Below are positions 1-24,802 of a stretch of 32,312 nt of DNA, piece by piece. The translations under genes were made by a program, and so were the position numbers. Source of the DNA: Thalassotalea sp. (GTDB lineage Bacteria; Pseudomonadota; Gammaproteobacteria; Enterobacterales; Alteromonadaceae); NCBI GenBank assembly GCA_029237915.1, contig JAQWHD010000033.1:1-32312 (forward strand), written 5' to 3'. Position 1 is the stretch's first letter. Each line of letters begins with the position of its first letter. Under the pieces are notes generated by a model that worked only from the letters and a program-made list of their open reading frames with translations, searched no databases and had not been told where the DNA came from.

Positions 1-2
1 CA

Positions 3-7378: not shown

Positions 7379-8071
7379 TTAGCAAAAATTATTTTCAATT
7401 TCTGGCCGAACAACCAGTTCGTGAATGTGCACCGTTGAGCGAGTAAAAATCATGTTTTCAATACCATCAGCAACATCTTTTGGATTCAAATATTCTGGTC
7501 TAGCTTCACATCTGAAATCTGTATCAATGCCACCGGGGTATACTGAAAGTACTTTTACGCCCGAAGTTAATAGCTCTTTCCTCAACACTTTTGTATAACT
7601 GTCCAAAGCTGCCTTACTTGCACTGTATTGTGCTGTTTTAGGGTTTGAGAACAAACAAGTCGTAGATAGCACATTGAGAATAATTCCATTTCTATTCTTC
7701 AACATATTCGGTAGTGTTAAATCAATAAGCTGAAGCGGAGCATAAAAGTTTATTTTCATCATCCAATCTAATTGTTGATAGTCAGGTGATGAGGCTAATG
7801 TTCTAGATGAATTTAACCCCGCACAATTAATCAACACATCAATATCACCAAGCTTATTTTGTGCTGCCAAGAAAAAACCTTTAACTTTCTTAGTCTCTGA
7901 TAAACAAAAGCTTTCTGCGTATACGTTATCTTTATTTGAAATATCAGATAAGGTTTCGTTCATCTTGCTGCTACTTCTGCCACATAAACTCAATTTAAGG
8001 TCCTTCGTAGCGAGTTTTATCGCTAAAGCACGGCCTACTCCCGAAGAAGATCCTGTTATTAGAATATGCAT
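7379..8071 (-). CDS. Short-chain dehydrogenase/reductase of unknown substrate
   Basis: This is a classical single-domain SDR of about 230 residues. It has the nucleotide-binding TGSSSGVG motif at the N-terminus, INCAG in the middle and the catalytic Y-S-A-S-K segment, followed by a VYPGGIDTDF loop typical after the active site. The Rossmann fold would bind NAD(P)H. A GTG four codons upstream (8083) overlaps the ribosome site AAGGTG. I therefore choose the ATG at 8071, which has that site 9 nt before it. It has no signal peptide, so it acts in the cytoplasm. Its place between the receptor and beta-galactosidase genes suggests a role in galactose or related sugar oxidation or reduction, but nothing in the sequence fixes the substrate. 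Confidence 0.85.
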   Translation of the reverse strand: MHILITGSSSGVGRALAIKLATKDLKLSLCGRSSSKMNETLSDISNKDNVYAESFCLSETKKVKGFFLAAQNKLGDIDVLINCAGLNSSRTLASSPDYQQLDWMMKINFYAPLQLIDLTLPNMLKNRNGIILNVLSTTCLFSNPKTAQYSASKAALDSYTKVLRKELLTSGVKVLSVYPGGIDTDFRCEARPEYLNPKDVADGIENMIFTRSTVHIHELVVRPEIENNFC

Positions 8072-8132
8072 AGATGTATACACCTTATGAATCTATTAAT
8101 ATCGAATTAAATCAATGTTGGAATAAACAGGT

Positions 8133-11571: not shown

Positions 11572-12909
11572 TCATTTAACCTTCTTTTGATGCTTTTTTA
11601 TTTTGGCCTCATGAGCCTTGTCGCGCACTTTCATATTAGAATCTATAAATGATCTAGGCATTGAATTATCATCAATTTTAAAGTTCTTGCCTAGAATTTC
11701 GTTCATCAAATCATGTAAATATTCGTTTTCAGAGATTGTTTCACTATTTGACTGCTTTTTGCTGTCAGACAATATTTTAGGTGGTTTATCGTTAGTACTC
11801 GACTTTTTAGGTTTAGGCACACTTCGTTTTTTGTTATTAAGTGGTCGTACAGAACGAATAGCTTTACACCAAAATGGTGGTGCAATAATTGTCGGCGTTG
11901 AAAGCTTCTCTAGCATCATTTTTGCGCCGATTGGTACATTAAGTATAACAGCGGTGCCTGAGGTTTGGCTGAGTAGGTAACTAAGCGTTTTGCGGATCCC
12001 CGTAAGATCCGTTTCTGTTGCCGTTGGTTTTTCATGGTAGAAACTAGAGGGTTCTAAAGTGTCATTTTCAACTCTCTCTATTTTATCAACTAATCGATCG
12101 CTAATAACACAATCAAATTTTTCAACCTTATTGCTAGTAAAATTGACTACAGCAGGATAATCATTGTCATCGACCATAAAAGCATTAACAGGCTTATCAA
12201 CTATAGCGTCGAATTTATCGGCAATGGAGACTAAAGGTGTATCACTTGATTTGTTGCCTTCAATTGCATCAAGCTGCTTTAATAATGGCACGGTAAAACT
12301 ATCTTTCAAACCCAACACTTGAAATAAGCCAATGGTAGCAATCTTAGCTTCCTGCGATGCAAAGTGTGTTTTGTTTATATTGATAACTTTCCAGCTGCCA
12401 GCATCATTTTGTAGTTGTTCATCTGTTCGCTTACCATTTTCTGGCATAAGGATAACTAGTGGTACAGTGTCGTAATGTTCATCTACAACGGGGCAAATAG
12501 TATTAATAAAATCACCTAGTTTTTGAACGTCATCGTCAGTTTCTCCCACGTAAGTTAGAGCATCAAAAGAGCTATAAGTACCTGCTGTTGCGAAGTCGAT
12601 ATTTTTGCCGATTGACCATCCATGTTTAATTAGTGATTTTTCATAAGTTGGGGATAAATTACTAGCGATGTTAAGTAATTCCTCTGGTTGAATATACCTT
12701 ACTTCCAAAGCATCGCTCGCATTAGTAATATGATGGCTGAGGAACTTAACTTTTTTTGTTCGAAATAGTGCTGTTGCTTTTTCTAGTGTTAAGTTGGCAC
12801 CGTTTGTTACACCAAGTAATGTACGAATTAACATACTGAGTTGATCAGGCGTGTTTACATTTAACAATTTTTTGGCAAATTGCTGTGCTGAGTTTGATAA
12901 ATATTTCAT
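11572..12909 (-). CDS. Protein of unknown function, 445 residues, basic C-terminal tail
   Basis: I do not recognise the family. There is no signal peptide or membrane segment, so the protein is probably cytoplasmic. Residues 1-350 are a mixed alpha/beta region with strands such as VPLVILMPE and TAVILNVPIGAK. From about 350 to the end the chain is rich in Lys and Ser, with RPLNNKKRSVPKPKKSS and a final AKIKKHQKKVK, which suggests contact with nucleic acid. It runs away from the integrase gene, shares no operon with it and has its own terminator. A long inverted repeat lies in its leader (12940-12985). Its position at the left side of the accessory region suggests cargo of the element, possibly a defence or accessory gene; that is a guess. 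Confidence 0.7.
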   Translation of the reverse strand: MKYLSNSAQQFAKKLLNVNTPDQLSMLIRTLLGVTNGANLTLEKATALFRTKKVKFLSHHITNASDALEVRYIQPEELLNIASNLSPTYEKSLIKHGWSIGKNIDFATAGTYSSFDALTYVGETDDDVQKLGDFINTICPVVDEHYDTVPLVILMPENGKRTDEQLQNDAGSWKVININKTHFASQEAKIATIGLFQVLGLKDSFTVPLLKQLDAIEGNKSSDTPLVSIADKFDAIVDKPVNAFMVDDNDYPAVVNFTSNKVEKFDCVISDRLVDKIERVENDTLEPSSFYHEKPTATETDLTGIRKTLSYLLSQTSGTAVILNVPIGAKMMLEKLSTPTIIAPPFWCKAIRSVRPLNNKKRSVPKPKKSSTNDKPPKILSDSKKQSNSETISENEYLHDLMNEILGKNFKIDDNSMPRSFIDSNMKVRDKAHEAKIKKHQKKVK

Positions 12910-12939
12910 GGGGGTGTCCTCTTTTAAGTTAAACAGATC

Positions 12940-13181: not shown

Positions 13182-13205
13182 CAAAGTACTTGCTTATGGC
13201 TTTGG

Positions 13206-13232
13206 TAGTGTTTCGCTTTTACACTAAAGCGA
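13206..13232. repeat. Nested inverted repeats just upstream of integrase 1
   Basis: TAGTGT (13206-13211) pairs with ACACTA (13221-13226), and TCGCTTT (13213-13219) pairs with AAAGCGA (13226-13232). The alternative pairings end 9 nt before the ATG, where they could act as an operator or control translation. Confidence 0.4.
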
Positions 13233-13241
13233 GATAATACA

Positions 13242-14375
13242 ATGCCTAAAGCACAACTTACCAAAGCTTATATAGAAGCCAATAAATTAAATATAACCAA
13301 GCAACATGAAGTAACCGACAGTCAAGAGCCAGCATTACGAGTGATTTTTTATGCGAACAAAGTTTCGTATGTAGCGCGAGTTTTTTGGCAAACCAAACGT
13401 TATTACTTATCCATTGGCACATACCCATATGTACCTTTACCTAAAGCACGGCAATTAGCAGCGCAATTTAAATGCGATGTACAAACAGGGGAATATAACC
13501 ACAAGGGACAGATTAAATTTAGTGATTTTGTTTATCAGCACTTCAAACCTCGTGTGTTTGCCACACTAAAATATAATACCGCTTATGAATACATGCAACG
13601 CCTTGAAAGTATGGTCTTACCAACAATGGGTGATACGCCGATGGTACAAGTTGGACGTTCTGACGTTATTAATTATTTAGATAATAAATCGACAACGTTA
13701 AAACCTAGTACGGTAAATCGTTACCATTCTTTATTTGGCAGCGTGTTTAGCCTTGCTGTTGAAAAAGGCTTTATTGATGAAAATAAATCCCCTGTTAAAT
13801 GTATTAAAAAGCGCAAAGAAAATAATACCCACAAGAAGGTATTACCTTCAAAAGAGCAAGTAAAGGCACTAATTAAGTTCTGTAACAGTAACCCGAATCA
13901 AGAGTTAGGCTGTGATTTGATTTTATTACTGCTCTATACAGGGATGCGCTTATCTGAAGCCTTATCGCTTAAGATTAGTGATATTAAAAATGACGGTACA
14001 ATCATATGGATACAAGAAAATAAAGCATCACGCCCCGTTGGTTTACCTGCAAATAGCGAAGCACAAGCCATCATAAAAAGGCTTATAAAAGCAACTTGGA
14101 ACGAGTACCTTTTTCCTTCCCCTGTTTTAGATAATCGTCAGATGGGGGCACCGCGAAGATTATTAACTAAGTTAAAAAATCAGCTTAAGCTAAATGAGTT
14201 TGGCTTTCATTATTGCCGCGCCATCTTCTGTACAGCAGTCGCTAAGAAAAATGTACATATGGCCCAAAAACTCCTAAACCACTCTGATATAAAGACAACT
14301 AACCTTTATATTTACCATGATGATAGCTCACTAATGCAAGCAACAGAATCAGTTGTCGCACACTATAACAACTAA
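13242..14375 (+). CDS. Tyrosine recombinase/integrase 1
   Basis: A complete 377-residue integrase. The N-terminal part (about 1-90) is the arm-binding domain of the type found in island and prophage integrases, with YLSIGTYPYVPLPKAR. A core-binding SAM-like domain (about 90-185) and the catalytic domain follow. Catalytic residues visible are Arg236 (TGMRLSEAL), Lys261, the H-x-x-R pair His323-Arg326, His347 in LLNH and the nucleophile Tyr356. It would catalyse integration and excision of the element by strand exchange. The gene is followed by a strong hairpin at 14389-14419. It faces the AlpA-like gene, a common arrangement of integrase and directionality factor. The target site cannot be read from the sequence. 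Confidence 0.9.
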   Translation: MPKAQLTKAYIEANKLNITKQHEVTDSQEPALRVIFYANKVSYVARVFWQTKRYYLSIGTYPYVPLPKARQLAAQFKCDVQTGEYNHKGQIKFSDFVYQHFKPRVFATLKYNTAYEYMQRLESMVLPTMGDTPMVQVGRSDVINYLDNKSTTLKPSTVNRYHSLFGSVFSLAVEKGFIDENKSPVKCIKKRKENNTHKKVLPSKEQVKALIKFCNSNPNQELGCDLILLLLYTGMRLSEALSLKISDIKNDGTIIWIQENKASRPVGLPANSEAQAIIKRLIKATWNEYLFPSPVLDNRQMGAPRRLLTKLKNQLKLNEFGFHYCRAIFCTAVAKKNVHMAQKLLNHSDIKTTNLYIYHDDSSLMQATESVVAHYNN

Positions 14376-14388
14376 CGCTTTCTAAAAA

Positions 14389-14419
14389 TGCCAATTCAAG
14401 TTTATCGCTTGAATTGGCA
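14389..14419 (+). terminator. Hairpin terminator after integrase 1
   Basis: Perfect 12-bp arms TGCCAATTCAAG (14389-14400) and CTTGAATTGGCA (14408-14419) with a 7-nt loop, followed by a moderately T-rich tail. Confidence 0.6.
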
Positions 14420-14456
14420 CTTACTTTTCATCTGTTAACCCTCACCCCTTATCTCT

Positions 14457-14472
14457 GGAAAATGTACTTACA
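14457..14472 (+). promoter_or_regulatory. Element motif, copy 1
   Basis: GGAAAATGTACTTACA, in the same orientation as copy 2 and 103 bp upstream of it, ahead of the AlpA-like gene. The following bases include ATT at the place where other copies have ATTA. Confidence 0.6.
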
Positions 14473-14559
14473 GCATTCTCCGATTAAATATATTCCTACC
14501 ATACAGCCAAGTAAAAATAGCACGTTAATTTTTACTTCAAACAAGTTAGGTGAACTTCG

Positions 14560-14575
14560 GGAAAATCTAGTTACA
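14560..14575 (+). promoter_or_regulatory. Element motif, copy 2
   Basis: GGAAAATCTAGTTACA, ending 61 nt before the AlpA-like ATG. It also shares the left flank TTAGGTGAA with copy 3 near 19640. Confidence 0.65.
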
Positions 14576-14636
14576 GAATTAAGCTGAAATTAATTAATTT
14601 ACCATTACCGCCTAACTACATTACTAAAGGGGATTT

Positions 14637-14828
14637 ATGAATAACGAGATTTATTTAGACAAGAAAGGGTTATCAAAACGTTTTGGTACTTCACTCTCTT
14701 GGGTTGATAAAGCCATGGCTTACACGCCAGACAAATTACCTGCATTTATACGTTTTGGTCGTTTAGTCAGGTTTCCAATCGCTGAAGTGCTTAAGTTCGA
14801 GCAACAGCAATTATTAAATACAAAATAG
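14637..14828 (+). CDS. AlpA-like small helix-turn-helix protein (likely excisionase or activator)
   Basis: This 63-residue protein fits the AlpA/HTH_17 pattern: LDKKGLSKRFGTSLSWVDKAM as helix-turn-helix, then FIRFGRLVRFPIAEVLKFEQQ, where the F-G-R-L-V-R-F wing is typical. Such proteins act as recombination directionality factors or as activators in satellite phages and islands. The ribosome site AAAGGGG precedes the ATG. It is the first gene of a tight operon with the unknown 179-residue gene, the polymerase and the ATPase. Two copies of the element motif lie upstream, so it may be both a regulated gene and the regulator. The family call is firm, the role inferred. Confidence 0.75.
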   Translation: MNNEIYLDKKGLSKRFGTSLSWVDKAMAYTPDKLPAFIRFGRLVRFPIAEVLKFEQQQLLNTK

Positions 14829-14838
14829 GGGACATACA

Positions 14839-15378
14839 ATGTCTGATGTTATAGAAGAGTTAAGTTTAGATGTTTTTGGTAACAAAGGTTTTTCGCAAGA
14901 GCCTTCATCTGAGGAAAATGATTGGGAAGTGAGATCCTTTCCAGACAAGCCTTTTAGAGCCAATGAAGATCCAGAAAAGTCATTAGTAGCGCATGTATTA
15001 ACAAGTGCTAGCGGTGATATGTATTTGGTTGCTATGGATATTGCCATTCAATTAGGTAGTGACGTTAAAAAACGAGTACTAGTTGAAGCTCAAATGGCAA
15101 AAGGGGATAAATTTTTATTATCAATTTCTGCCATTACACCAAAAAATCATAATAATGATTGGGTGAGCTCTGCTCAGAGCGCATTGAAAAAAAGTATGAG
15201 TAAAATGGTTCGCGTGTCTCGGGCATCTGATTCTTATCGTGTGATTGAAAGTCAGCGCCCTTGTGATAAAGCGATATGGTCTGATTTAACACTGGAAGAG
15301 ATTGTTGAAAAAGCGTTTGGTGATCGGTTAATTACTGATATGGATCACCCCGCGATTATCGAGCTTTTAAGTTTCTAA
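14839..15378 (+). CDS. Unknown protein of the replication operon, 179 residues
   Basis: I do not recognise this family. The chain is soluble, with an acidic N-terminal 45 residues. It then has a beta-rich region (KSLVAHVLTSASGDMYLVAMDIAIQLG, KKRVLVEAQMA, DKFLLSISAITPK) and a helical C-terminus. A ribosome site (GGGG) lies 8 nt before the ATG, 10 nt after the AlpA-like stop. The stop is two bases before the polymerase start, so the two are translationally coupled. That coupling suggests a polymerase accessory factor such as a clamp, single-strand-binding protein or primer-handling protein. This is inference from position only. Confidence 0.75.
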   Translation: MSDVIEELSLDVFGNKGFSQEPSSEENDWEVRSFPDKPFRANEDPEKSLVAHVLTSASGDMYLVAMDIAIQLGSDVKKRVLVEAQMAKGDKFLLSISAITPKNHNNDWVSSAQSALKKSMSKMVRVSRASDSYRVIESQRPCDKAIWSDLTLEEIVEKAFGDRLITDMDHPAIIELLSF

Positions 15379-15380
15379 CC

Positions 15381-16742
15381 GTGGATATAAATAGCATTAA
15401 GAGTATTGGCACTTGCGCCAATACTCTTTCATCATTTGTAATAGTTGATGCTAATGGTACCAACTATCACCATAACGTTTTATCTTCCCAAGACACTTTT
15501 CTATGTTTTGATATAGGGGCTTTGCATCAAACGTTGAGCAAAGCAGACCTTCCTATTCCCGTAAACCTTATTGACTTGAAAAGTGAATTTGGTTTGCTCA
15601 ATAATATCATTGATAAACAAGCTGAATTTTCATGGCTTAAATTGTCACTAAACGAAATGGTTTTGGCAACTAAAGTTGATACTGTTGCGCCCGATGCGAG
15701 TCTTTGGTTGCATCCATGTTTAGAGAGTTCGGCAAAGTATTTAGCAAACCAATCAGCAGAGATCGCTTTACGCCATGCAAACTGGTTAATACAGTTATGG
15801 CAAGAATATCATCAAGCTATCTCTATTGAACAAGCAGTTAACCGTGCTCACTACAGCAAACTTGTCAGCCAAATATCTATGCAGGGAATTCCTGTTGACG
15901 TTAGCGCGATAAAGCAAGTTACGGCAATTGAAGCGCCCGTTGCACGTAATATTCTCAGTTATGTTGATGGAGGGCGATGTTATTGCCCGATAGCGTCCTT
16001 CGGTACGATAACTGGTCGCAACACAACAAGTAGTAGTGCTTACCCACTTTCTATTAAATCTGATTACCGTAAATGGTTTAAACCTGCAAAAGGTCGTTGC
16101 TTTTTGCATCTTGATTATCATCGAGCAGAAATTGGTATCGCAGCAGCCGAAAGCCAAGATAAAAACTTGCTCGATTTATATCTTAATGGCGATCCGTATT
16201 TATGGCTTGCCAATCAATGCACACCTGTAATGGAGCTAAAAAAAGCAAAACGGCTATTTATTGCTTTTCAATATGGAGCAACACCAACACAAGCATTTGT
16301 CAGAAAAATGTCACTACCTGAAAGAATTATTCAGCATTTATATAGCATTCATCAGGCGCACTTTAAACGTTATTGGTCTTGGACTGAAACAGTGATTGAA
16401 GATGCGTGTTTTGATGGTTGTTTAACAATATCTGATGGCTGGCGTGTAGGTATCACTCCAAAGTCATCAGTGTTGAGCATGGTTAACTTCCCAATTCAAG
16501 CTATGGGCGCGCTGATTTTAAGAGATGTTGTTCATCAATTAGGTGAGCAGAATATTTTACCAATTGGGCTTAACCATGATGCCGTGCTACTTGAGTGTGC
16601 TTGTGAAGAAGCCACTGAATTAGTACACAAAACAAAAGTAGTGATGGAAGGCGTATCACAAAATTTATTAGGCATTGCATTGAAAGTATCGGTCGATATT
16701 GGTCAATCAGGCCAAACTTTATTAGAAGTACTGGAGAAATAA
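15381..16742 (+). CDS. Compact family-A DNA polymerase
   Basis: This 453-residue protein has the C-terminal polymerase domain of the DNA polymerase I family. TGRNTTSS (211-218) matches the conserved TGR-x-S-S. Motif A is DYHRAEIGIAA with Asp245. Motif B has Lys290 and Tyr298-Gly299 at the O-helix spacing. NFPIQAMGALILR (369-381) is the conserved NFPIQ segment, and motif C is NHDAVLLE with His399-Asp400. The second acidic residue usual in motif C (HDE) is replaced by Ala, and the O-helix Phe/Tyr is Ile. No 5'-nuclease domain is present. The first 150 residues show no clear proofreading motifs. The start is GTG, two bases after the preceding stop. It probably replicates the element itself. Confidence 0.85.
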   Translation: MDINSIKSIGTCANTLSSFVIVDANGTNYHHNVLSSQDTFLCFDIGALHQTLSKADLPIPVNLIDLKSEFGLLNNIIDKQAEFSWLKLSLNEMVLATKVDTVAPDASLWLHPCLESSAKYLANQSAEIALRHANWLIQLWQEYHQAISIEQAVNRAHYSKLVSQISMQGIPVDVSAIKQVTAIEAPVARNILSYVDGGRCYCPIASFGTITGRNTTSSSAYPLSIKSDYRKWFKPAKGRCFLHLDYHRAEIGIAAAESQDKNLLDLYLNGDPYLWLANQCTPVMELKKAKRLFIAFQYGATPTQAFVRKMSLPERIIQHLYSIHQAHFKRYWSWTETVIEDACFDGCLTISDGWRVGITPKSSVLSMVNFPIQAMGALILRDVVHQLGEQNILPIGLNHDAVLLECACEEATELVHKTKVVMEGVSQNLLGIALKVSVDIGQSGQTLLEVLEK

Positions 16743-16744
16743 AA

Positions 16745-18238
16745 ATGACGAAAAAAGAAAAGAAACCTCAACTGATTGAGTTGATTGAGTTAGTTGAGGA
16801 CATGGCCTCTTTAGTGTTAGACCAACATGGTATGGCGTTTATTAAAATCAGCGTTGATGGTCAACATAAAGTCATCGGTATTAATTCACAAGAATTTGCA
16901 GATTGGCTGCGTCATTATTACTTAGAGGCAACAGGTAAGCCAATTTTAGCGATGAACTTAAAAGACACATGCGAGCACTTTAGTAGTATGGCAAGGAGTA
17001 CAGGTGATAAAATTACTACATCATTGCGTAATGCATACGTTAATAAATGTGCCTATGTCGACTTATCAAATAGTAAAGGCGAAGTTGTTAAGTTGGATGA
17101 AAATGGGTGGGCATTATCCACCGAGCCAGAAATTTACTTTACCAAGTCTGGTCCAATGGCTGAACTGCCATTTGCATTAAAGACATCTGATTCAAATTTG
17201 ACTGAGTTATTAGCACCATATTTAAATCTTTCGGATGAGCATGCTCGTTATCTATTGATAGGGTTTATTGTAGCAAGCTTCTTCGACCTACCTAGCAAAG
17301 CAATGTTGGTTATTAATGGTGAGCAAGGCTCAGCTAAAACCACTACCACACGTATTATTGGTCAACTTATTGATCCTTCAAAAGTGAAAACACAATCGAC
17401 GCCTACATCAATGAATGACTTGATGGTAGCAGCCGCAAATAGTGCGCTGTTATGTTTTGATAATACGAGTAAGTTACCGCCTAAACTGATGAATATGATT
17501 TGTCAGTTGAGTACAGGAGCTGGATTTAGGCGGCGTAAGCTCTACTCTGATCTCGATGAAATCGTTTTTGAAATATCTCGTATGGTTATTATTAATGGAA
17601 TAGATGCAGATATTATCTCAGCCACTGACTTATTAAGCCGTTGTGTTCAAATAGTATTACCAGCAATTACAGGGACGCAACGTATATCTGAATCAAAGCT
17701 ATGGAAAAACTTCTATAACGACCAACCTGTAATATTGGGTGCACTCTATGACGTTGTCGTTAAGGTTATCTCGATCATTGATGATATTGAGCTTGATGAT
17801 GCAACACGTTTAACTGATTTTTGTCGTGTTGGTGTGGCTGTTGAACGTGTATTGAAGTGGCCTGAAGGTGCGTTTATGAAAGCGTTAACAACCATGCAAG
17901 CGGAAGCAATGGAAATTGCGCTTGAGTCTGATGTGACCGCAACGGGTATTCAAAGAGTGATGGAAAATCGCACACGCTGGGATGGAACAGCCGACAGGTT
18001 ACTATCAACAATGAATCAGCTTTGTGGCTTTGATTTAACTAGCCAGCAATTGTGGCCAAAATCGGCACGTTCTTTGGGCATTAGACTTGTTAAAATTATG
18101 CCAGCACTTCGCGAGCAAGGTATAGTGATTGAAAAAACCAAGTCTGGCCCACGAAAAATCACTATAACTAACAACAGTATAGCTGTTAATCGTCCGATGA
18201 AACCTGAATCGCCATTGAATAAGTTTGATGCGGCGTAG
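16745..18238 (+). CDS. P-loop ATPase, likely replicative helicase of the element
   Basis: A 497-residue AAA-like ATPase. The Walker A motif is GEQGSAKTT (192-200), Walker B is LLCFDN (235-240, Asp239), a sensor-like IINGID lies at 282-287 and a probable arginine finger at LSRC (Arg299). The layout, an N-terminal domain of about 150 residues then one ATPase core and a helical tail, resembles the ATPase half of primase-helicase proteins of plasmids, prophages and satellites. No primase catalytic motif is evident in the N-terminal part. The ATG has GGAG 8 nt upstream and lies two bases after the polymerase stop. Together with the polymerase it forms the replication module. Its role as helicase or initiator is inferred. 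Confidence 0.75.
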   Translation: MTKKEKKPQLIELIELVEDMASLVLDQHGMAFIKISVDGQHKVIGINSQEFADWLRHYYLEATGKPILAMNLKDTCEHFSSMARSTGDKITTSLRNAYVNKCAYVDLSNSKGEVVKLDENGWALSTEPEIYFTKSGPMAELPFALKTSDSNLTELLAPYLNLSDEHARYLLIGFIVASFFDLPSKAMLVINGEQGSAKTTTTRIIGQLIDPSKVKTQSTPTSMNDLMVAAANSALLCFDNTSKLPPKLMNMICQLSTGAGFRRRKLYSDLDEIVFEISRMVIINGIDADIISATDLLSRCVQIVLPAITGTQRISESKLWKNFYNDQPVILGALYDVVVKVISIIDDIELDDATRLTDFCRVGVAVERVLKWPEGAFMKALTTMQAEAMEIALESDVTATGIQRVMENRTRWDGTADRLLSTMNQLCGFDLTSQQLWPKSARSLGIRLVKIMPALREQGIVIEKTKSGPRKITITNNSIAVNRPMKPESPLNKFDAA

Positions 18239-18263
18239 TTAGTTTTTTCATTTACATATTAGG

Positions 18264-18286
18264 CCGTACATCAATGTGCGGTTTTT
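18264..18286 (+). terminator. Terminator of the replication operon
   Basis: CCGTACA (18264-18270) pairs with TGTGCGG (18275-18281), with one G-U, and is followed by TTTTT. It starts 25 nt after the ATPase stop. Confidence 0.65.
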
Positions 18287-18326
18287 GTTTCAAGAAAAAG
18301 CCCCTGAGAGACTTGGGCATTAGCAT

Positions 18327-18342
18327 GGAAAATCTCTTTTCA
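18327..18342 (+). promoter_or_regulatory. Element motif, copy 3 (variant)
   Basis: GGAAAATCTCTTTTCA differs from the consensus at one fixed position (T for A in TTACA). It ends 59 nt before the small ORF at 18402, which supports that ORF being a real gene. Confidence 0.5.
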
Positions 18343-18401
18343 ATGCCTCCTTGAAATTAATATCTATATTGTGTTTTTCCTTTTAATCATTAAGTGAAAA
18401 T

Positions 18402-18542
18402 ATGTCAATGAATAATCATCTCAATAAAAAAACTGCTTTAATAATTTGTAATCATACATCACCAAGAATTGAAGTGGGACTAAATATTCCTTATACCTAC
18501 AAAGAGCGCCGAGGGTTCAAGTGGATTGAATCAAGCATTTAA
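18402..18542 (+). CDS. Possible small protein, 46 residues
   Basis: This short frame starts ATG TCA ATG and ends TAA at 18540-18542. It encodes a basic, mixed peptide with TALIICNHTSPRIEVG and YTYKERRGFKWIESSI, which reads like real protein rather than random sequence. The ribosome site is weak (AAGTGA). A copy of the element motif lies at the same distance upstream as for other element genes. No family is recognised. The 13-base match to the tRNA-His T-arm within it is treated as chance. Downstream, 18543-18683 shows no gene. Confidence 0.4.
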   Translation: MSMNNHLNKKTALIICNHTSPRIEVGLNIPYTYKERRGFKWIESSI

Positions 18543-18683
18543 TAAATAAAAACTGTGTTCAATATTACTAACTACTTCATAAATTGGTTGTATATGGTGA
18601 AGTGGATCATTTAACTTGAAAGTTGAATAATAATTCTCTTTAATAAGTTGGACGTTGATCGATTTGGACATTTCAAATCGTAT

Positions 18684-18716
18684 AAGTAAGGTAACCCAAT
18701 ATGGGTTACCTTACTT
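18684..18716. repeat. Perfect 15-bp palindrome beside the partition genes
   Basis: Arms 18684-18698 and 18702-18716 (AAGTAAGGTAACCCA and its complement) surround a 3-nt spacer. It starts 14 nt beyond the stop of the ribbon-helix-helix gene on the minus strand. The minus-strand tail is not T-rich, so besides a terminator it may be a DNA-binding or partition site. Confidence 0.6.
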
Positions 18717-18729
18717 TATTGAACTAACA

Positions 18730-18927
18730 TTAACTGTTAACCATTGGCTTTAATAACTCTCTTACAATTTGGCTAACTGTTACGTCATTAATTTCGGCAT
18801 GTTTTTTTAACAGTGCAGCTTCTTTGATGTTTAAGTAAAAACTCAGTCGTATTTTTTTCTGCCTTAATTTCATTTTAGGTCGGCCACCTATAGCATACTC
18901 AAGTTCACTTAATGTTTGCATCTTCAT
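18730..18927 (-). CDS. Ribbon-helix-helix DNA-binding protein, probable partition partner of ParA
   Basis: A 65-residue protein with a basic N-terminus (GGRPKMKLRQKK). A ribbon-helix-helix core follows: the strand IRLSFYLN, a first helix KEAALLKKHAEIND, then VTVSQIVRELLKPM. This matches CopG/ParG-size proteins. Its start overlaps the ParA-like stop by four bases, so the two are made together. In type Ib partition systems the small ribbon-helix-helix protein binds the centromere site and represses its own operon. That role fits here and is inferred from the pairing. Confidence 0.75.
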   Translation of the reverse strand: MKMQTLSELEYAIGGRPKMKLRQKKIRLSFYLNIKEAALLKKHAEINDVTVSQIVRELLKPMVNS

Positions 18928-19517
18928 TTTTTAGCTCCTAACGCAACGATAGAGTCATATACTTGCTCATGCGTTTTTCTACTTTTATTTAACTGATATT
19001 CGCCTTTATTGTGATGAACATTACTAAACCATTCACTGCCGTCTTTAGCTACGCGTTCAAACAATGTTGTTCTCCGAATACCTAGAATGGTTAGTTGACC
19101 TAAGGTTTCAATTAAATGATTTTTGGCATTGTTAAACTTGCTTTCACTCGTGAAGTTATTAATAACAATGATTGTGGGTTTACCAGCCTCTTTAACTAAA
19201 TTTAAAGTATCAATTGTGCCTTGCAAGCTTCTAGCATCAGTCAATGTCGGTATGATAATGGCATTACTTAATTTAACAGCATGAGCAACTTTCGGATCAA
19301 TGTTGGTCGACATAGCACCAAAATCAAAGACGATGTCTTTTTTGGCTGTGTATTGCAGCGGTATTCTTTTTTTATTAGGCGCTATTTGTGCAACATTACT
19401 CTTTTCACTAATGATCAAGTCAGTTGTTACACATTTAATACCTAAATAAGTCGCTAAGTTAATAGCTAATGAAGTCTTACCAACGCCACCCTTAAGTGAA
19501 AGAAATAAATATCTCAT
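18924..19517 (-). CDS. parA: ParA-like partition ATPase (small, type Ib)
   Basis: The 197-residue protein begins with the deviant Walker A motif KGGVGKTS (9-16), including the signature first Lys. IVFDFGA (Walker B, Asp65) and IIVINNF follow, as in MinD/ParA proteins. It has no N-terminal DNA-binding domain, which is the small type Ib form. It would bind DNA in its ATP state and move the element's centromere complex during segregation. It is the first gene of a two-gene minus-strand unit and diverges from the gene at 19729. The 211-nt region between them holds an inverted repeat (19531-19562) and an element motif. Partition genes imply that the element exists as an extrachromosomal copy at least some of the time. 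Confidence 0.85.
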   Translation of the reverse strand: MRYLFLSLKGGVGKTSLAINLATYLGIKCVTTDLIISEKSNVAQIAPNKKRIPLQYTAKKDIVFDFGAMSTNIDPKVAHAVKLSNAIIIPTLTDARSLQGTIDTLNLVKEAGKPTIIVINNFTSESKFNNAKNHLIETLGQLTILGIRRTTLFERVAKDGSEWFSNVHHNKGEYQLNKSRKTHEQVYDSIVALGAKK

Positions 19518-19530
19518 TGCGACATTCCTT

Positions 19531-19562
19531 TATAGGTTGATGGGTGCTTAATTACACCTATA
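19531..19562. promoter_or_regulatory. Inverted repeat in the parA upstream region (possible operator or centromere)
   Basis: TATAGGT (19531-19537) and ACCTATA (19556-19562) form a perfect 7-bp inverted repeat starting 14 nt before the parA ATG, a common place for autoregulation by ribbon-helix-helix proteins. Confidence 0.4.
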
Positions 19563-19648
19563 AATTTGTTAGCAAAAAGTGGGGCAAGTTTAGTACTTTT
19601 GGAGCACCTTCTTATTTAGATATTTTTGTGAAATTTAGGTGAATATCA

Positions 19649-19664
19649 GGAAAATGTCATTAGC
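19649..19664 (+). promoter_or_regulatory. Element motif, copy 4
   Basis: GGAAAATGTCATTAGC with left flank TTTAGGTGAATATCA resembling copy 2. It ends 64 nt before the ATG at 19729 and is followed by AAATTA at the ATTA position. Confidence 0.6.
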
Positions 19665-19728
19665 AAATTATACGCATTAACACTGCTGTATTTTCTAGTC
19701 TTTATTCATAAACGTACTAGGAAATAAC

Positions 19729-20196
19729 ATGAAATACAGCTCTAATAAAACGCATGCAAGTAACAGCAATCTATCTGAATTAGAATTACAGCTTGAGGAA
19801 AGGCTTACCTTGATTAGTTCAATCGAGCAGAGAAATGATGGCTTATATTTAGATGATAAGTTGATAGCGCCTGTTGTACTTAAATTAAATAGAGATGGTA
19901 ACAACGTTTCAAGCACAGCTTTTGAAGTTAAGCCTGATAAGCCTTATCGAATTAGTTGGACATCTGAGCCTGTTAAATTTGAAAGTATGGACTACTTCCC
20001 GCATGGCCTAAGCAAGACTTGTTTAAGTTTTGCATTTAAATATGATGACAAGTGGGCACAAGATCTATTCTTTTGGCTAATAGCGAAAGAGTTTTTCGAA
20101 AATGATGAGCTAGAACAGAAAAGCTATTGGAAAAAGTTAATGAGAACTCGTCATTTCTTAACCAGAGCAATAGGGTTTAAGTTAATTGAAGCGTAA
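19729..20196 (+). CDS. Unknown element protein, 155 residues
   Basis: No family is recognised. The protein is soluble. Residues 13-35 form a likely helix (LSELELQLEERLTLISSIEQR), a beta-rich part (LIAPVVLKLN, STAFEVKPDKPYRISW) follows, and the C-terminus is aromatic and basic (WAQDLFFWLIAKEFFE, YWKKLMRTRHFLTRAIGFK). The ribosome site AGGAAA lies 5 nt before the ATG. It is divergent from parA, has an element motif upstream and a hairpin terminator downstream, so it is a single-gene unit. Confidence 0.7.
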   Translation: MKYSSNKTHASNSNLSELELQLEERLTLISSIEQRNDGLYLDDKLIAPVVLKLNRDGNNVSSTAFEVKPDKPYRISWTSEPVKFESMDYFPHGLSKTCLSFAFKYDDKWAQDLFFWLIAKEFFENDELEQKSYWKKLMRTRHFLTRAIGFKLIEA

Positions 20197-20229
20197 GCGG
20201 CTTATTTTGTAGTAATTCGTCTTGTATTA

Positions 20230-20262
20230 AAGCCAATCACTTGGCATAGGTGATTGGCTTTT
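20230..20262 (+). terminator. Terminator hairpin between the 155-residue gene and integrase 2
   Basis: Perfect 11-bp arms AAGCCAATCAC (20230-20240) and GTGATTGGCTT (20250-20260) with a short T tail on both strands. Confidence 0.6.
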
Positions 20263-20341
20263 GTGATCAAATAGACTCGCGTATCAAGGTAAAGCATAGC
20301 CATATATTAATTCTTTAGATTTAACCCTTTGGAATTAAGTT

Positions 20342-21514
20342 ATGCAAAAACGTTTCAAGTTTACCGACAAGGCTATCAAAGCCTTACCAAATAATCCGCG
20401 AGATTCAAAATCAACAGAGTTAGAAGTAACCTGCCTAATTACCCCAAATTTAAAATGCATAGTAGGCAAGACTGGCAACAAGCGCTTCCTTTTCCGTTAC
20501 ACCTATAAAGGTCGAAAATTCAGCATGAGCCTTGGCTCTGTTGATATTGGTGTGGCAGCAGCTAGGCGTATCGTTCAAAAACATAAAATGGCCCTAAGCG
20601 AAGGCCAAAACCCAAAAGCAGAGCGTGATAGTCATCAACGCTTAACACTTGATGAGTTTTTCGAGGAACATTATTTACCGAGTATTAAGAAACGTAAAAA
20701 GAGCTGGCGTGATGATGTTTATCGTTATGAGGTAAATATCTCCCCCAAGTTAGGGCGAATACTTTACCAAGATTTACGCACTATTGATGTTCAACAATTA
20801 CATTTAAAAATAACAGATACGGTGAATAAGTACGGTAACTTCTATGCTCCGGCAACAGCTAATCAAGTGTTGATGATACTCAAAAGTATGACGAAGTACG
20901 CGATAAACTTAGATGTCATTGAGGGTGATGTTTGCTTGCCTGTTAAGCTATTTCGATTAAACAATGCCCGAACGCATTTTCTCACGACCTATGAAGTTAA
21001 GCGGTTACTCAATGCTTGCCGTGAATATTCTAATAAAACAATCGCTGGTTATATTGCAATACTTGCCTTAACAGGATTACGCTGTGGTGAGGTATCAAAT
21101 ATTAAAGTAAAAGATGTTGATATTAAAAGGCGAGTCATTGAAATACCCATGACTAAAAATGGCCGAAAAAGGGTAGTGTTTATCACCGATAGCATGCTCG
21201 CCTTTATTGGTAATATCCCCTTAAAGGCTGATAATCCCTACCTATTTGCAGGCCGAGTAAAAGGTCAGCCATTACGTTCAACTCGCAAGACATTCTTTAA
21301 ATTACTTAAACGTGCTCAAGTTAATGCTGATGGTGTTTGCCAACATACCTTGAGGCATTCAGTAGCAAGTAACTTAGTCTCAAATGGCGTTTCGCTTCGA
21401 TTAGTACAAGAACAATTGGCGCATCGCTCAATCATATCGACCCAGCGCTACTCAAAGTTAACGACTGAGTCTATGCGCCAAACCAGTGAAACATTATCAA
21501 ATCTGTTTAGCTAA
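20342..21514 (+). CDS. Tyrosine recombinase/integrase 2
   Basis: A complete 390-residue integrase distinct from integrase 1. The N-terminal arm-binding part (about 1-95) contains FRYTYKGRKFSMSLGSVDIGVAAARR. The core-binding domain runs from about 100 to 200. The catalytic set is intact: Arg247 (TGLRCGEV), Lys272, the H-x-x-R pair His335-Arg338 (HTLRHS), His361 (LAHRS) and the nucleophile Tyr370 (TQRYSK). It has its own strong terminator at 21538-21585. Two intact integrases in 8 kb suggest either a nested or tandem second element (perhaps 20.3-23.5 kb) or one element using two recombinases. The element motif is found on both sides of it but not directly upstream. Confidence 0.92.
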   Translation: MQKRFKFTDKAIKALPNNPRDSKSTELEVTCLITPNLKCIVGKTGNKRFLFRYTYKGRKFSMSLGSVDIGVAAARRIVQKHKMALSEGQNPKAERDSHQRLTLDEFFEEHYLPSIKKRKKSWRDDVYRYEVNISPKLGRILYQDLRTIDVQQLHLKITDTVNKYGNFYAPATANQVLMILKSMTKYAINLDVIEGDVCLPVKLFRLNNARTHFLTTYEVKRLLNACREYSNKTIAGYIAILALTGLRCGEVSNIKVKDVDIKRRVIEIPMTKNGRKRVVFITDSMLAFIGNIPLKADNPYLFAGRVKGQPLRSTRKTFFKLLKRAQVNADGVCQHTLRHSVASNLVSNGVSLRLVQEQLAHRSIISTQRYSKLTTESMRQTSETLSNLFS

Positions 21515-21537
21515 CTCTATTTAACAAAATTCATATA

Positions 21538-21585
21538 AAGCCCACTCCTAAGACCTTAATCGGTTTAAAGGAGCGGGCTTTTTTT
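21538..21585 (+). terminator. Strong terminator after integrase 2
   Basis: AAGCCC (21538-21543) and an inner CTCC pair with GGAG and GGGCTT (21575-21580), ending in seven T residues. It lies 24 nt after the stop. Confidence 0.8.
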
Positions 21586-21605
21586 CATTTATATAAGGAA
21601 ACAGT

Positions 21606-21968
21606 ATGCAAGTGATTAACTATTTACCATCTGCTAATCAATTAGCATTGGCACACTTTACGGCTCAATGCGCCGTTGATTTGTTGTTAGAGCCATTTAG
21701 CACTATTAGCGATGCACGAGATTTTTGGCGTGAATACTCAAGCGTGATTATCTGCTTTAACCGACAAGATGATTTAGCCGCTGCCATGAATACCCTTGAT
21801 GATGCAACGTGCCACTTTATCGAACAAGCTGAGTTGAATCCTGAGTTTGTTGAAAACTTAGCTGATGGTTACCAATTGTCATTAACCATTACCAACGATA
21901 TGGGGACGGGCTTATACCTAATTAAGCCTAAAGAATTAACTATCAGCAACGGTGAGTCTCATGACTAA
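21606..21968 (+). CDS. Unknown protein, 120 residues
   Basis: No family is recognised. The chain is a soluble acidic protein, mostly helical in the first 80 residues (LALAHFTAQCAVDLLLEPF, DARDFWREYSSVIICFN), then a beta strand YQLSLTITNDMGTGLYLIKP. The ribosome site AAGGAAA lies 5 nt before the ATG, 20 nt after the integrase 2 terminator. Its end overlaps the next small gene by eight bases, so they form an operon that continues to about 22652. Confidence 0.65.
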   Translation: MQVINYLPSANQLALAHFTAQCAVDLLLEPFSTISDARDFWREYSSVIICFNRQDDLAAAMNTLDDATCHFIEQAELNPEFVENLADGYQLSLTITNDMGTGLYLIKPKELTISNGESHD

Positions 21969-22059
21969 AAATCAGTTAATTAGCATTATCTGTAATGCTG
22001 ACACACCACTTTCAATTCGTCTCGATGCGCAGAATCTATTAAATCAATTAACAAAATAA
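21961..22059 (+). CDS. Small protein, 32 residues, overlapping its upstream neighbour
   Basis: A short frame ATG...TAA overlaps the end of the 120-residue gene by eight bases. GGTGAG lies upstream at a suitable distance. The peptide is MTKNQLISIICNADTP followed by a helical LDAQNLLNQLTK. Tight overlap and a good ribosome site make translation likely. No function is known. Confidence 0.45.
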   Translation: MTKNQLISIICNADTPLSIRLDAQNLLNQLTK

Positions 22060-22082
22060 CCATTAAAAAAAGGAAAAACACT

Positions 22083-22652
22083 ATGGCTGTGAAAGCTAAG
22101 AATACTAAAACTAGTGAGAAGGCTAGTACTGATAAATCAATTGAGGTTGATGAAAAATCAAACGATGAAGTTATTACGGATTTACCCGTTGAAACAGAAA
22201 TTGTGACGGATGATAAACCAGATATCGACCCTGATAGTCAGTACAAAACAGTATTAGTTGGTCAAGCTAAAACCTTATCAGCAAAATCAAAGAGCTTGAT
22301 TGGTTTTGAACTCGCATTAAACACCGATGATAAATGCCGTTACTTACGAATGACAGCTAACTCAAATGGTGGCTTATTCTCAAAAGAGTGGGTTAGTCTT
22401 GATGAGGTATTTGCGTTACTAGAGCAGCAAGATTTAGATAAACCGTTTAAGTCTTCAATATTCAAGGCGGTAATCAAAGGCGGTTCGGCAAATAATGTTA
22501 GCTTTTTATCAGCTGTGTTTCGCGCTGAGGATTTAAGTTTAATACTGAAATCTGAAAAGAGTCAATTCTTGCACATGGTTAACCCGTTATTAGTGAACCA
22601 ACGTGACAGGCTTTCCAAGCTAAAAGTACTTCCCACACCAGCCCTAAAATAG
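22083..22652 (+). CDS. Unknown protein with disordered acidic N-terminus, 189 residues
   Basis: Residues 1-55 are low-complexity Lys/Ser/Thr then Asp/Glu-rich sequence (DEKSNDEVITDLPVETEIVTD) and are probably disordered. Residues 55-189 form a folded part with KTVLVGQAKTLSAKSK, GFELALN, RYLRMTANSNGGLFSKEWVSLDEVFALLEQ and a helical end with VNPLLVNQRDRLSKL. The ribosome site AAAGGAAAAA lies 6 nt upstream. It is the third gene of the small operon after integrase 2. The family is not recognised. Confidence 0.65.
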   Translation: MAVKAKNTKTSEKASTDKSIEVDEKSNDEVITDLPVETEIVTDDKPDIDPDSQYKTVLVGQAKTLSAKSKSLIGFELALNTDDKCRYLRMTANSNGGLFSKEWVSLDEVFALLEQQDLDKPFKSSIFKAVIKGGSANNVSFLSAVFRAEDLSLILKSEKSQFLHMVNPLLVNQRDRLSKLKVLPTPALK

Positions 22653-22712
22653 ACGTTCATACGTTTACTGCTTGCAGTAATACTCCCTACAAAAACAACT
22701 TAAGGTTTTATT

Positions 22713-23144
22713 ATGAAACTGACTTTTGACAAGAGCCAGTGTTTCACTGTGCCCGAAAAGCTTTACCAAATACTAAACGATGAATTAGCTAACCATTCAT
22801 CACCAGATTGTGACACAGAAGGCATTATTTTTAATTTTCGTGATCCTGATTATTCTAGTGATAATGGTGGATTTCATCCTGTAGAGATACGACTCGTTAA
22901 GCATGTGCTAGCAGGTAAAGTGCAATGGCAATTTGAATACATGACGGACTTTTCTTTTCAGGGTTACCCCTTTGCGGAGCTGACAAAAGAAATTGATGTT
23001 TGTTTCAGAACAAAGCAAGTTTATAACTTATATGGAGGTTGGTTAAGCAAAGCTGCTGGTGATGAACTGATGGCAATGTTTTTAGAAAACTTTATTTCAT
23101 ATATCGAAATGAACGTCTTTACGGTAACTATTAATTTTGACTAA
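22713..23144 (+). CDS. DUF2787-family protein
   Basis: The 143-residue protein matches the pattern I know for DUF2787, a family common in Vibrio and Shewanella islands: FNFRDPDYSSDNGGFHPVEIRL, then WQFEYMTDFSFQGYPFAELTKEIDVCF and GGWLSKAAGDELMAMFLENFISYI. The family has no known function. The gene lies 60 nt after the 189-residue gene and starts with ATG after AAGG. Its presence supports the idea that 21.6-23.5 kb is island cargo. The match is by eye, not by profile search. Confidence 0.75.
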   Translation: MKLTFDKSQCFTVPEKLYQILNDELANHSSPDCDTEGIIFNFRDPDYSSDNGGFHPVEIRLVKHVLAGKVQWQFEYMTDFSFQGYPFAELTKEIDVCFRTKQVYNLYGGWLSKAAGDELMAMFLENFISYIEMNVFTVTINFD

Positions 23145-23195
23145 CCCTGTTATGGACAGGATAAGTAAATTGGATATTTTAATGTTTAACGTGGT

Positions 23196-23283
23196 GGTCA
23201 TTAGGATTAGGAAATTAAGATGTAATGACCTACTTACTGTAAAGGGCTTTGTCTGTTAGCCGGATTAATCATTCGGCTGACAG
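23196..23283. repeat. Two inverted repeats in the space before the glycine-zipper gene
   Basis: GGTCATTA (23196-23203) pairs perfectly with TAATGACC (23223-23230), and CTGTTAGCCG (23253-23262) pairs with CGGCTGACAG (23274-23283) with one G-U. Neither has a T tail. They could be RNA structures or protein sites. Confidence 0.45.
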
Positions 23284-23317
23284 TATTGTTTGAAATTAAT
23301 TGGAGATTTATAGCAAA

Positions 23318-23482
23318 ATGAAAAAATCTAAATTGCCCTTTGATGGTAAATACATCTCAAAAGGTGCGATGAAAGGTGCCGTAACAGGTATGGCAATTGG
23401 CTATCGTTTTGGTCCTTATGGTATTGCTATTGGCGCTACTTTAGGTGGAATTACTGGATATGTCATTGAAGAATTAAAATAG
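23318..23482 (+). CDS. Small glycine-zipper membrane-type protein, 54 residues
   Basis: The ATG at 23318 is chosen over a TTG 18 bases upstream, which has no ribosome site. GGAG lies 13 nt before the ATG, a little far. After a basic N-terminus (MKKSKLPFDGKYISKG) comes a Gly/Ala-rich stretch GAVTGMAIGYRFGPYGIAIG and ATLGGITGYVIEE, with glycines spaced as in glycine-zipper proteins that insert in membranes. Small element-borne proteins of this type may be membrane-active, for example bacteriocin-like or lysis-related, but no function can be assigned. Confidence 0.6.
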   Translation: MKKSKLPFDGKYISKGAMKGAVTGMAIGYRFGPYGIAIGATLGGITGYVIEELK

Positions 23483-23797
23483 GCCAACCAAAAATGGTTA
23501 GCTAATGATGGAGATATTCGGCTTAAAGTGACCTTAAAACCTTATGAATGTTTAGGTCTTATTTCTTTCCTTTTAAATTAATAGGATTTAGTCTGCCCGA
23601 CGAGCTATTTGTATGTTAGTTAAATCACTTACTACTTTATCTCTCTACACAGACTGAGCATTCAAGCCAAAAATTGATGCTTTTTTATTTAATATCTAAG
23701 TGTTATTAATTTGAAATAATGCATATGTCATGGCTGAGTTTTGAAGTTACCCAAACTGTATCTAAGGGTAAAATATATAGTCAAATTTTTAGTTTCT
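23483..23797. other. Space without a convincing gene
   Basis: An imperfect hairpin AACCA/TGGTT follows the glycine-zipper stop at once and may end its transcript. The rest is AT-rich. A 60-codon TTG frame at 23741 has no ribosome site and overlaps the next gene, so it is not called. Confidence 0.5.
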
Positions 23798-23813
23798 GGA
23801 AAATGTTATTACA
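23798..23813 (+). promoter_or_regulatory. Element motif, copy 5
   Basis: GGAAAATGTTATTACA followed by CGATTA. It ends 75 nt before the ATG at 23889. It agrees with copy 1 at all but two of 16 positions. Confidence 0.6.
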
Positions 23814-23888
23814 CGATTAGTCGACCTGTTTTTGGTGATTTAATAGCTTCAACGCATCGGCGTTTAACTTTTTATAGGATACAAAGAT

Positions 23889-24380
23889 ATGATAGATTTA
23901 ATAACAACATTGGGTGGAAGTAAACTTTATAAGCATAAAGAAATCTTTCATTTTGGCAATATGCATAATGGAATAGATGGTGAAGGTTTAGCTCAATCCG
24001 CCAAAGGCATCCATCCATGGGATGGGGATTGCGAAACACCTTATGGCGTACCAGTTCTAGATTTCAATATTGAGTCTTTTAAAGACGGCTCAGTTGTAGT
24101 GGTTGAAGTATATATAGACGGTTCAACAATTTCTTTTCGCAGTTTTAGTAAGGGAAAAAATAAGTTACCTGATTGCTTTTATATTGCAAAGCGCTATATC
24201 AACAGCATTGTACCTGAAAAAGCTGAACTGATAGAGGCAATGCTATTAAGTCTAGTTGGTGTAGCGATACTTAATGATGATATAGGTTGTACATTAACTT
24301 GTCAGGACATAGCGATAGATATGTATAAAAGAGAAAAATTGAAACAAAATTTAAAGTATAATTTAGTTATCCAATCCTAA
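23889..24380 (+). CDS. Unknown element protein, 163 residues
   Basis: No family is recognised. The protein is soluble, with HFGNMHNGIDGEGLAQSAKGIHPWDGDCETPYGVP early on, then strands DGSVVVVEVYIDGSTISFRSFS and a helical C-terminal half with AELIEAMLLSLVGVAILND. The His/Gly/Trp/Asp-rich segment at about 20-50 might hold a metal or active site. The ribosome site is AGGAT, 10 nt upstream. It has its own motif copy upstream and its own terminator. It is the last gene before the tRNA. Confidence 0.65.
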   Translation: MIDLITTLGGSKLYKHKEIFHFGNMHNGIDGEGLAQSAKGIHPWDGDCETPYGVPVLDFNIESFKDGSVVVVEVYIDGSTISFRSFSKGKNKLPDCFYIAKRYINSIVPEKAELIEAMLLSLVGVAILNDDIGCTLTCQDIAIDMYKREKLKQNLKYNLVIQS

Positions 24381-24436: not shown

Positions 24437-24652
24437 GTAGAAAACACAGGAATTAGACAGTAAATTTTAATTCTGATCAAAGTTAATCAGTTCCGGTCGA
24501 TGTTGAAGATATGAGTTAGAAGTTGGATATACGTGTAAGTAATTAGACCTAATTAGCTTCAAATACTCACAGAATATGCACAGGAGCGGTTATCAGAAAG
24601 TTCTGATTATAGTAGTGAATTGCCTAGAGGCTTTGATTTAAAAGGGAGAGAA

Positions 24653-24729
24653 TGGGGTGGCTAAAGGGACTTGAACCCTCGACAACCGGAATCACAATCC
24701 GGGGCTCTACCAACTGAGCTATAGCCACC
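24653..24729 (-). tRNA. tRNA-His (GTG anticodon)
   Basis: On the minus strand the cloverleaf is complete. The acceptor arms are GTGGCTA and TAGCCAC, the D arm is GCTCAGTTGGTAGAGC and the anticodon loop TTGTGAT holds GTG. The T arm is GAGGG-TTCAAGT-CCCTT. The 3' end reads C-CCA with CCA encoded, and the extra G-1 typical of tRNA-His is at 24729. Its 3' end points toward the accessory region, as expected if an element used it for integration. The attachment duplicate was not found. Confidence 0.97.
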
Positions 24730-24802
24730 ACTGATATACATAACAGGCGTTATCTATGGGTGTTTCACGTTTACTGCCACAAGTTTGAAACAGTGCGCGG
24801 AT

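Follow-up and report, generated by a model that had tools for sequence, protein, structure and literature searches.

A genomic island in a tRNA-His gene of Thalassotalea sp. with an unusual replication module

The island, its borders and its cargo

The window, meaning the whole stretch of DNA analyzed here, comprises 32,312 nucleotides from Thalassotalea sp. (contig JAQWHD010000033.1 of assembly GCA_029237915.1) and is contig C56 of a 3.2-Mb genome. It contains part of an integrated element whose general layout is a left part made up of cargo and a right part that forms a mobile backbone running from the integrase gene int1 to a DUF2787 gene (Table 1). The backbone encodes two tyrosine integrases (Phage_integrase in Pfam, 1e-24 and 3e-30), a small helix-turn-helix (HTH) protein resembling AlpA, a short family-A DNA polymerase preceded by the 179-aa protein p179 and followed by an ATPase, and ParA with a ribbon-helix-helix (RHH)-like protein. 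An earlier, sequence-only reading had placed a candidate integrative replicon at 13242-24380. The integrases and the other genes on which it relied are real, as is the combination of integration with replicon equipment, but the element is ~36 kb, about three times longer, and carries galactan/galactose cargo. As a genomic island it is of a general kind already known; its replication module is unusual.

The left end lies on a second contig. Window 1-101 is identical to the last 101 bp of contig C70, the only such match in the genome among the matches listed, and galM has one reading frame through this overlap. The right flank, window 24651-32296, aligns with the nearest relative, G481, with one short gap; C70:26973-39999 aligns, in pieces with a 4-kb gap, with G481 DNA on the other side of tRNA-His. 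Both flanks adjoin within tRNA-His in G481, which is therefore an empty site of the kind that the sequence-only reading had proposed to look for. In the present genome, ~36.0 kb (C70:40034 to window 24699) parts them. The size of the element follows from this meeting of the flanks and from a 49-bp repeat of the tRNA-His 3' half, found at C70:40034-40082 and window 24651-24699. The two copies of this attachment (att) repeat are identical at 46/49 positions, the next-best places reaching 30/49 (12.5 kb of C70) and 25/49 (window), and the repeat is not due to chance. The C70 copy agrees with G481 in its T-arm bases, which in the window copy show a paired swap from T-A to A-T; we read the C70 copy as the displaced host 3' end and the window copy as a tRNA 3' end supplied by the island. 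Given the C70-C56 join, the locus thus has the tyrosine integrase, the direct repeat of a tRNA 3' end and the empty site that mark a tRNA-targeted genomic island. We consider it probable, jointly with the life cycle proposed below, that the element is a ~36-kb island in the tRNA-His 3' half, with 13242-24380 as its right half.

The left 24 kb holds two GH53 genes, one of them shorter, a GH2 gene, a TonB receptor, major facilitator superfamily (MFS) and SSF transporters, two LacI regulators, galT, galK, a galE-type gene and galM, together with IS110 and IS1595 transposases. The set looks suited to galactan use, and growth on galactan or galactose would be the phenotype carried. Some match to the first 13.2 kb of the window was found in 12/15 genus genomes including the present one, mostly short; G481, with 20 of 56 candidates scored, gave one 86-bp match, and G332 and G449 gave ~1.7 kb at 69% identity across the GH2 gene, at other loci. 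The cargo gene families are therefore not foreign to the genus, and the block is absent from the G481 site.

Table 1. Features of the island and its target site (window coordinates unless contig C70 is named)
Feature	Position	Strand	Remarks
galM (aldose 1-epimerase), C-terminal part	3..374	+	remainder on C70, Aldose_epim 1.3e-66 there
LacI-family regulator, cargo	989..1999	-	LacI 1e-18
Sugar transporter MFS_2, cargo	2001..3440	-	2.7e-56
GH53 endo-galactanase-type enzyme, cargo	3622..4800	-	Glyco_hydro_53 5e-75
GH2 beta-galactosidase-type enzyme, cargo	4896..7298	-	Pfam
Short-chain dehydrogenase, cargo	7379..8083	-	Pfam
TonB-dependent receptor, cargo	8169..10925	-	Pfam
p445	11572..12909	-	no family match
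int1, tyrosine integrase	13242..14375	+
AlpA-like small HTH protein, excisionase candidate, 63 aa	14637..14828	+	label by eye from sequence
p179	14839..15378	+	homologue directly before PolA in G582, less similar proteins in G335, G154 and G167
Short family-A DNA polymerase, 453 aa	15381..16742	+	no exonuclease domain detected
ATPase, putative replicative helicase, 497 aa	16745..18238	+
RHH-like protein, 65 aa	18730..18927	-	4-bp overlap with parA end
ParA-family ATPase	18924..19517	-	Pfam
p155	19729..20196	+	function not assigned by family scans
int2, tyrosine integrase	20342..21514	+
p120 (phrog_32947), island backbone gene	21606..21968	+
p189 (phrog_28971), island backbone gene	22083..22652	+
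DUF2787 protein, island backbone gene	22713..23144	+	Pfam 6e-40
p163	23889..24380	+	function not assigned by family scans
Motif copy 1	C70 ~40234	+	200 bp inside left end, 3 mismatches
Motif copy 2	14454..14477	+	int1-alpA intergenic
Motif copy 3	14557..14580	+	int1-alpA intergenic
Motif copy 4	19646..19669	+	parA/p155 intergenic, 3 mismatches in 19
Motif copy 5	23795..23818	+	~0.85 kb inside right end
Right attachment site	24651..24699	none	tRNA-His 3' half, 46/49 vs C70:40034-40082
tRNA-His, integration target	24653..24728	-

The replication module and its relatives

The polymerase matches DNA_pol_A in Pfam at 7e-12, and its family profile matches the solved Taq, Bst and Klenow polymerases, at best with 2e-22. 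Residues D245, E250, K290, Y298, G299, H399 and D400 do not vary among 8 sequences, and we take them to belong to motifs A, B and C of Pol I. In a tree built without G582, the island polymerases form one group separate from 11 host Pol I rows (100/100), on long branches. The ATPase has Walker A/B-like motifs read by eye, and no Pfam model reaches it at E<=0.001; its homologues in plasmids and one phage are annotated there as helicase or primase, some of the plasmids being 12-48 kb in size and one relative adjoining an annotated primase/polymerase. These matches bear out the earlier view that the element has its own family-A polymerase with an ATPase. In Methanothrix harundinacea plasmid pH6Ac (L028, 1608-4982), the ATPase family is found within a 1124-aa protein of an archaeal plasmid.

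A polymerase search of 295 genomes of the order matched 23: the present one, six with a short open frame (355-461 aa), and sixteen with long frames (925-983 aa) taken as host Pol I. An ATPase search of 295 family genomes matched three and gave a seventh short-polymerase genome, G335, as well as a weak partial match without polymerase, G395. The ATPase directly follows the short polymerase in all seven of the other genomes, and the pairing is not due to chance. Carriers of the pair include Shewanella gelidimarina (G182), Vibrio renipiscarius (G154), Vibrio sp. PID17_43 (G167) and Psychromonas ossibalaenae (G217), in the same order as the source genome. The gene order that had been proposed as a search target, from AlpA through p179 to polymerase and ATPase, thus recurs in its last two genes, and the similarity of p179 is weaker. 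At the level of the class, 11 of 369 genomes matched the ATPase, including the present one; the 10 others were without polymerase in the fetched locus, and a Toprim domain was found in two of five tested neighbor proteins (G709, G639). The A1 profile, run on 369 class genomes, returned mostly long frames taken as host Pol I and two shorter ones, in G582 and G650.

Beyond these genomes, the short polymerase had no relative in 72,556 plasmid records (tblastn, E<=1e-5), and neither polymerase, ATPase nor the A1 profile found one in viral contigs; in phages, five records gave partial matches to the polymerase, the best at 1e-8. The protein p179 matches its G582 homologue at 8.9e-5 in 2377 open reading frames (ORFs), and a profile of the window and G335 proteins reaches G582 at 4e-10; with the same profile, similarity to the G154/G167 proteins is borderline, at 1-2e-3. 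From its position and these matches, p179 is a likely partner of the polymerase.

Three of the polymerase islands are bounded by tRNA-Met 3'-end repeats: G001 (76 bp, 20.8 kb), G049 (18 bp, 21.1 kb) and G182 (49 bp, 15.1 kb). A left att copy was not found for the G335 island, and the repeat search gave none for G328, G554 C5 and G554 C30. The gene for p189 is on the same contig as the polymerase pair in 6/7 genomes, and p120, DUF2787 and an int2-like integrase each in 4/6. In the remaining genome, G217, contig C94 (L046; 5941 bp) has perfect 175-bp inverted terminal repeats containing the tRNA-Met attachment core; a third copy of this repeat ends contig C62, and the contig at whose end the repeat recurs has a weak p189-like match (5e-5). 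The inverted ends of C94 may have arisen in assembly, or the element may take an unusual form here. Four islands encode, immediately upstream of the polymerase module, a protein of 385-419 aa (L048 5551-6801(-), L050 4272-5486(-), L049 7678-8937(+), L051 7931-9088(+)), the G001 copy of which has no Pfam match; identities are 98.5% for G154-G167, 57% for G154-G001 and 29.5% for G001-G049. It is a possible replication initiator.

Backbone genes, a shared motif and a proposed life cycle

Relatives of int2 are 71-77% identical in five family genomes; int1 has no relative in plasmids (E<=1e-20) or in viral contigs. The int2-p120-p189-DUF2787 backbone is also found without polymerase in fetched stretches of other genomes, and p189 has no relative in phages or viral contigs and two partial matches in plasmids. 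An ORF is present where an AlpA-type HTH protein had been reported, with the label itself given by eye: its 63-aa product has no Pfam match even at E<=1 and none in NCBIfam, and only phrog_9848 at E 0.056. The partition pair was confirmed. The 65-aa RHH-like protein has DUF6290 (0.0009) and RHH_1 (0.006) as best matches, both below curated cutoffs, and a similar small ORF directly follows parA in G328, G375, G440 and G403 (G328 and G375 being the same there). It is likely to be a ParB-type partner of ParA.

A 24-nt motif, TCNGGAAAATNTANTTACANNATT, was found as a repeat family and defined from the sites at 14454, 14557 and 23795. Two sites beyond the defining three occur at 3 mismatches, compared with 0.03 expected per island from dinucleotide shuffles, and 0/200 shuffles had two; all five sites are on the plus strand. 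The island's flanks (21.6 kb) and genus relatives (153 kb) lacked such sites, and a search of 47 other loci (794 kb, some duplicates) returned only the island's own sites 14454 and 14557, in the re-fetched locus L113. With sites close to each end and in the control regions of parA and int1-alpA, the motif ties the large island together. One regulator may act on both ends, alpA and parA: the copies would be the sites of a single DNA-binding protein linking excision with the control of alpA and of parA.

Known satellites mostly borrow a polymerase. The island would instead be cut out as a circle, leaving an intact tRNA-His, through a tyrosine integrase aided by the AlpA-like protein in the role of excision factor, and the circle would be copied by p179, the short polymerase and the helicase-like ATPase, where known satellites use primase. 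ParA and its RHH partner would then distribute the copies until one reintegrates. No transfer or packaging gene was found among the island proteins scanned, and movement between cells therefore probably relies on a phage, on vesicles, on a conjugative helper or on natural competence. Excision, replication, segregation and any transfer or hijacking of a vehicle are predicted here from gene content.

Comparison with known systems and alternative readings

Island proteins were scanned with Pfam, PHROGs was given 12 window proteins, and several small ORFs fell outside the scans. Within this scope no capsid, packaging or conjugation gene was found, as the sequence-only reading had stated. On these scans a prophage or capsid satellite was rejected, with no capsid, terminase or packaging match, and so was an integrative and conjugative element (ICE), with no Pfam family for relaxase, coupling protein or type IV secretion.

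The phage-inducible chromosomal minimalist islands (PICMIs) of Vibrionaceae have an average size of 6.7 kb, require prim and insert at fis (PMC10803314); according to the same paper, the vast majority of known satellites carry primase. PICMIs share with the present island the gene order int-alpA-(one gene)-replication gene, the lack of capsid and transfer genes and the marine Gammaproteobacteria as hosts (PMC10803314). The present island differs in its family-A polymerase with ATPase, its site in tRNA-His, its length of 36 kb, and the presence of ParA/RHH and of catabolic cargo. Of the trio int, alpA and prim, the island has int and, by eye, an alpA-like gene, with no primase family in the backbone proteins, and its site is tRNA-His and not fis-adjacent. 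With polymerase and helicase in the place of primase and a tRNA site in the place of fis, it is therefore not a PICMI.

The tmRNA-linked islands I23/I44/I55, of which I55 is moved by jumbo phages, resemble it in tyrosine integrase and alpA, an RNA-gene site and the lack of recognized autonomous transfer genes, and their range of <20 to >70 kb includes the present island (PMC12595487, in excerpt). They differ in their tmRNA site and in frequent RadC, YqaJ and Gp2-like genes, and no polymerase-helicase pair is listed in the excerpt (PMC12595487). Also comparable are ICEs that replicate and partition the excised circle, SXT/R391 with srpMRC and PAPI-1 with Soj, which are likewise integrated elements with their own replication and partition equipment (PMC4489591, in part). 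These are conjugative, and no conjugation gene was found in the present island; in SXT/R391, moreover, partition is of ParM type and replication depends on TraI/oriT (PMC4489591, same part). By analogy, the island probably works like such replicating and partitioning islands and ICEs. Plasmids of Streptomyces (pFP11), Methanothrix (pH6Ac) and Methylobacterium have homologous ATPases that align over 81-95% of the protein with 26-32% identity. An annotated ParA is a further shared feature of pFP11, which, unlike the island, has an annotated primase/polymerase beside the ATPase. Tycheposons and VEIMEs are marine tRNA-targeted islands with metabolic cargo. Both are named in the introduction of PMC10803314. 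The full-text literature, a coverage that leaves most subscription papers outside, yielded no named family and no description of such polymerase islands, which supports the suggestion of an undescribed element; membership of PICMIs, ICEs and the DRT systems considered below fails.

Several observations weigh against a single island replicating with its own module. In the ATPase tree, the ATPase of the window clusters with helicases, some of them primase-linked, and not with polymerase-linked ones (96/92, long branches), and the other seven polymerase-linked ATPases fall elsewhere, with helicase G908 that has no polymerase (96/92); the polymerase-ATPase pair here may therefore be separately assembled. 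A reciprocal profile of G182, G154 and G167 reaches window p179 at 0.086 and does not list it at 0.1 once the G335 row is added. In G582 (C31 5733-10479; L186), genes for an integrase, a homologue of p179 and a family-A polymerase of 577 aa stand in a row without ATPase. The G582 set is a related but different replication module, and p179 with polymerase may be the older core, to which the helicase may have been added on more than one occasion. In none of the other seven polymerase loci, as fetched, was ParA found; it occurs with the int2-type module in G328, G375, G440 and G403, and no polymerase was found in the stretches annotated there. ParA thus goes with int2, and polymerase and partition genes, which had been put forward as a set, have been seen combined once, here. 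The relatives of int2 are found on both sides of tRNA-His and in both orientations, so that insertion is not assignable to one integrase. A search of the other 294 family genomes gave no relative of int1 at E<=1e-50, and int2 has relatives at E<=1e-60 in seven genomes. No int1-like gene stands beside the polymerase module in other polymerase loci, and the G709 island has a Toprim-domain protein before the ATPase and an integrase upstream in the same order. Together with an order and size like the PICMI plan int-alpA-up1-prim, these last points favor a 5-kb PICMI-like satellite, int1-AlpA-p179-PolA-ATPase, nested inside an ordinary int2-type tRNA-His island without polymerase. We regard such nesting as unlikely: six other genomes have p189 on the contig that carries the polymerase-ATPase pair, and four of these have an int2-like integrase there as well; the 24-nt motif present between int1 and alpA recurs near both ends of the large island; and no repeat flanks the supposed insertion, the longest exact word common to 12500-13242 and 18238-19000 being 10 bp. 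A 16-bp repeat at 12271/18430 was treated as chance because it has one mismatch and its left copy is inside the open p445 frame.

The IS110 and IS1595 transposases at the left end, a gene-poor right end (23.1-24.6 kb, about 1.2 kb) and the lack of close relatives of int1 would also suit an immobile relic, integrated once and kept for its galactan genes, with polymerase and partition genes as leftovers. The backbone ORFs are open, the catalytic columns of the polymerase are kept and both att sites are present at 46/49, and we find a relic as doubtful as nesting. Far less probable than either is that the polymerase is a defense component. It matches PADLOC RTasPolA, the reverse-transcriptase-associated PolA of DRT systems, at E 9e-33, but no reverse-transcriptase domain occurs among the window proteins scanned, none being found beside the polymerase, and the ATPase is the downstream gene in 7/7 relatives, the neighbors of which were not scanned for reverse transcriptases.

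The integrated, self-replicating tRNA-His island remains the reading that we prefer, and it can be extended, tentatively and with considerable doubt, to a marine gammaproteobacterial lineage of integrative replicons. A stripped-down family-A polymerase, p179 and a plasmid-type helicase would have replaced primase in this lineage, and the excised island would copy itself largely independently of the host polymerase, partition like a plasmid and carry entire pathways of polysaccharide degradation from one species to another in borrowed vehicles. If this is true, an island with polymerase and partition genes of its own would stand less clearly apart from plasmids, own replication could account for the survival of large cargo islands in the excised state, and such islands would offer a family-A polymerase of small size, possibly working together with p179 and a helicase. 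The cargo shows a way for a galactan and galactose gene set to enter a genome at one tRNA site.

Some further observations concern the target sites. A second, decayed tRNA-His 3'-end copy is seen ~100 bp past the first in both genomes (L077 ~8210-8235; C70 ~39918-39945) and is perhaps the scar of an older integration. In G440:C34 253647-265910 (L180), tRNA-His is followed by three more part-copies of its 3' half (257300, 263205, 265880), and integrations have probably stacked up at this tRNA. At ~301670 and ~301840 of G335:C1 (L187), two tRNA-Met-like 5' halves that lack matching 3' halves adjoin an int2-p120-p189-DUF2787 module; ARAGORN calls no tRNA there. Just past tRNA-His in the host flank of the window, a leucine-rich-repeat protein is encoded at 24962-25927(-).

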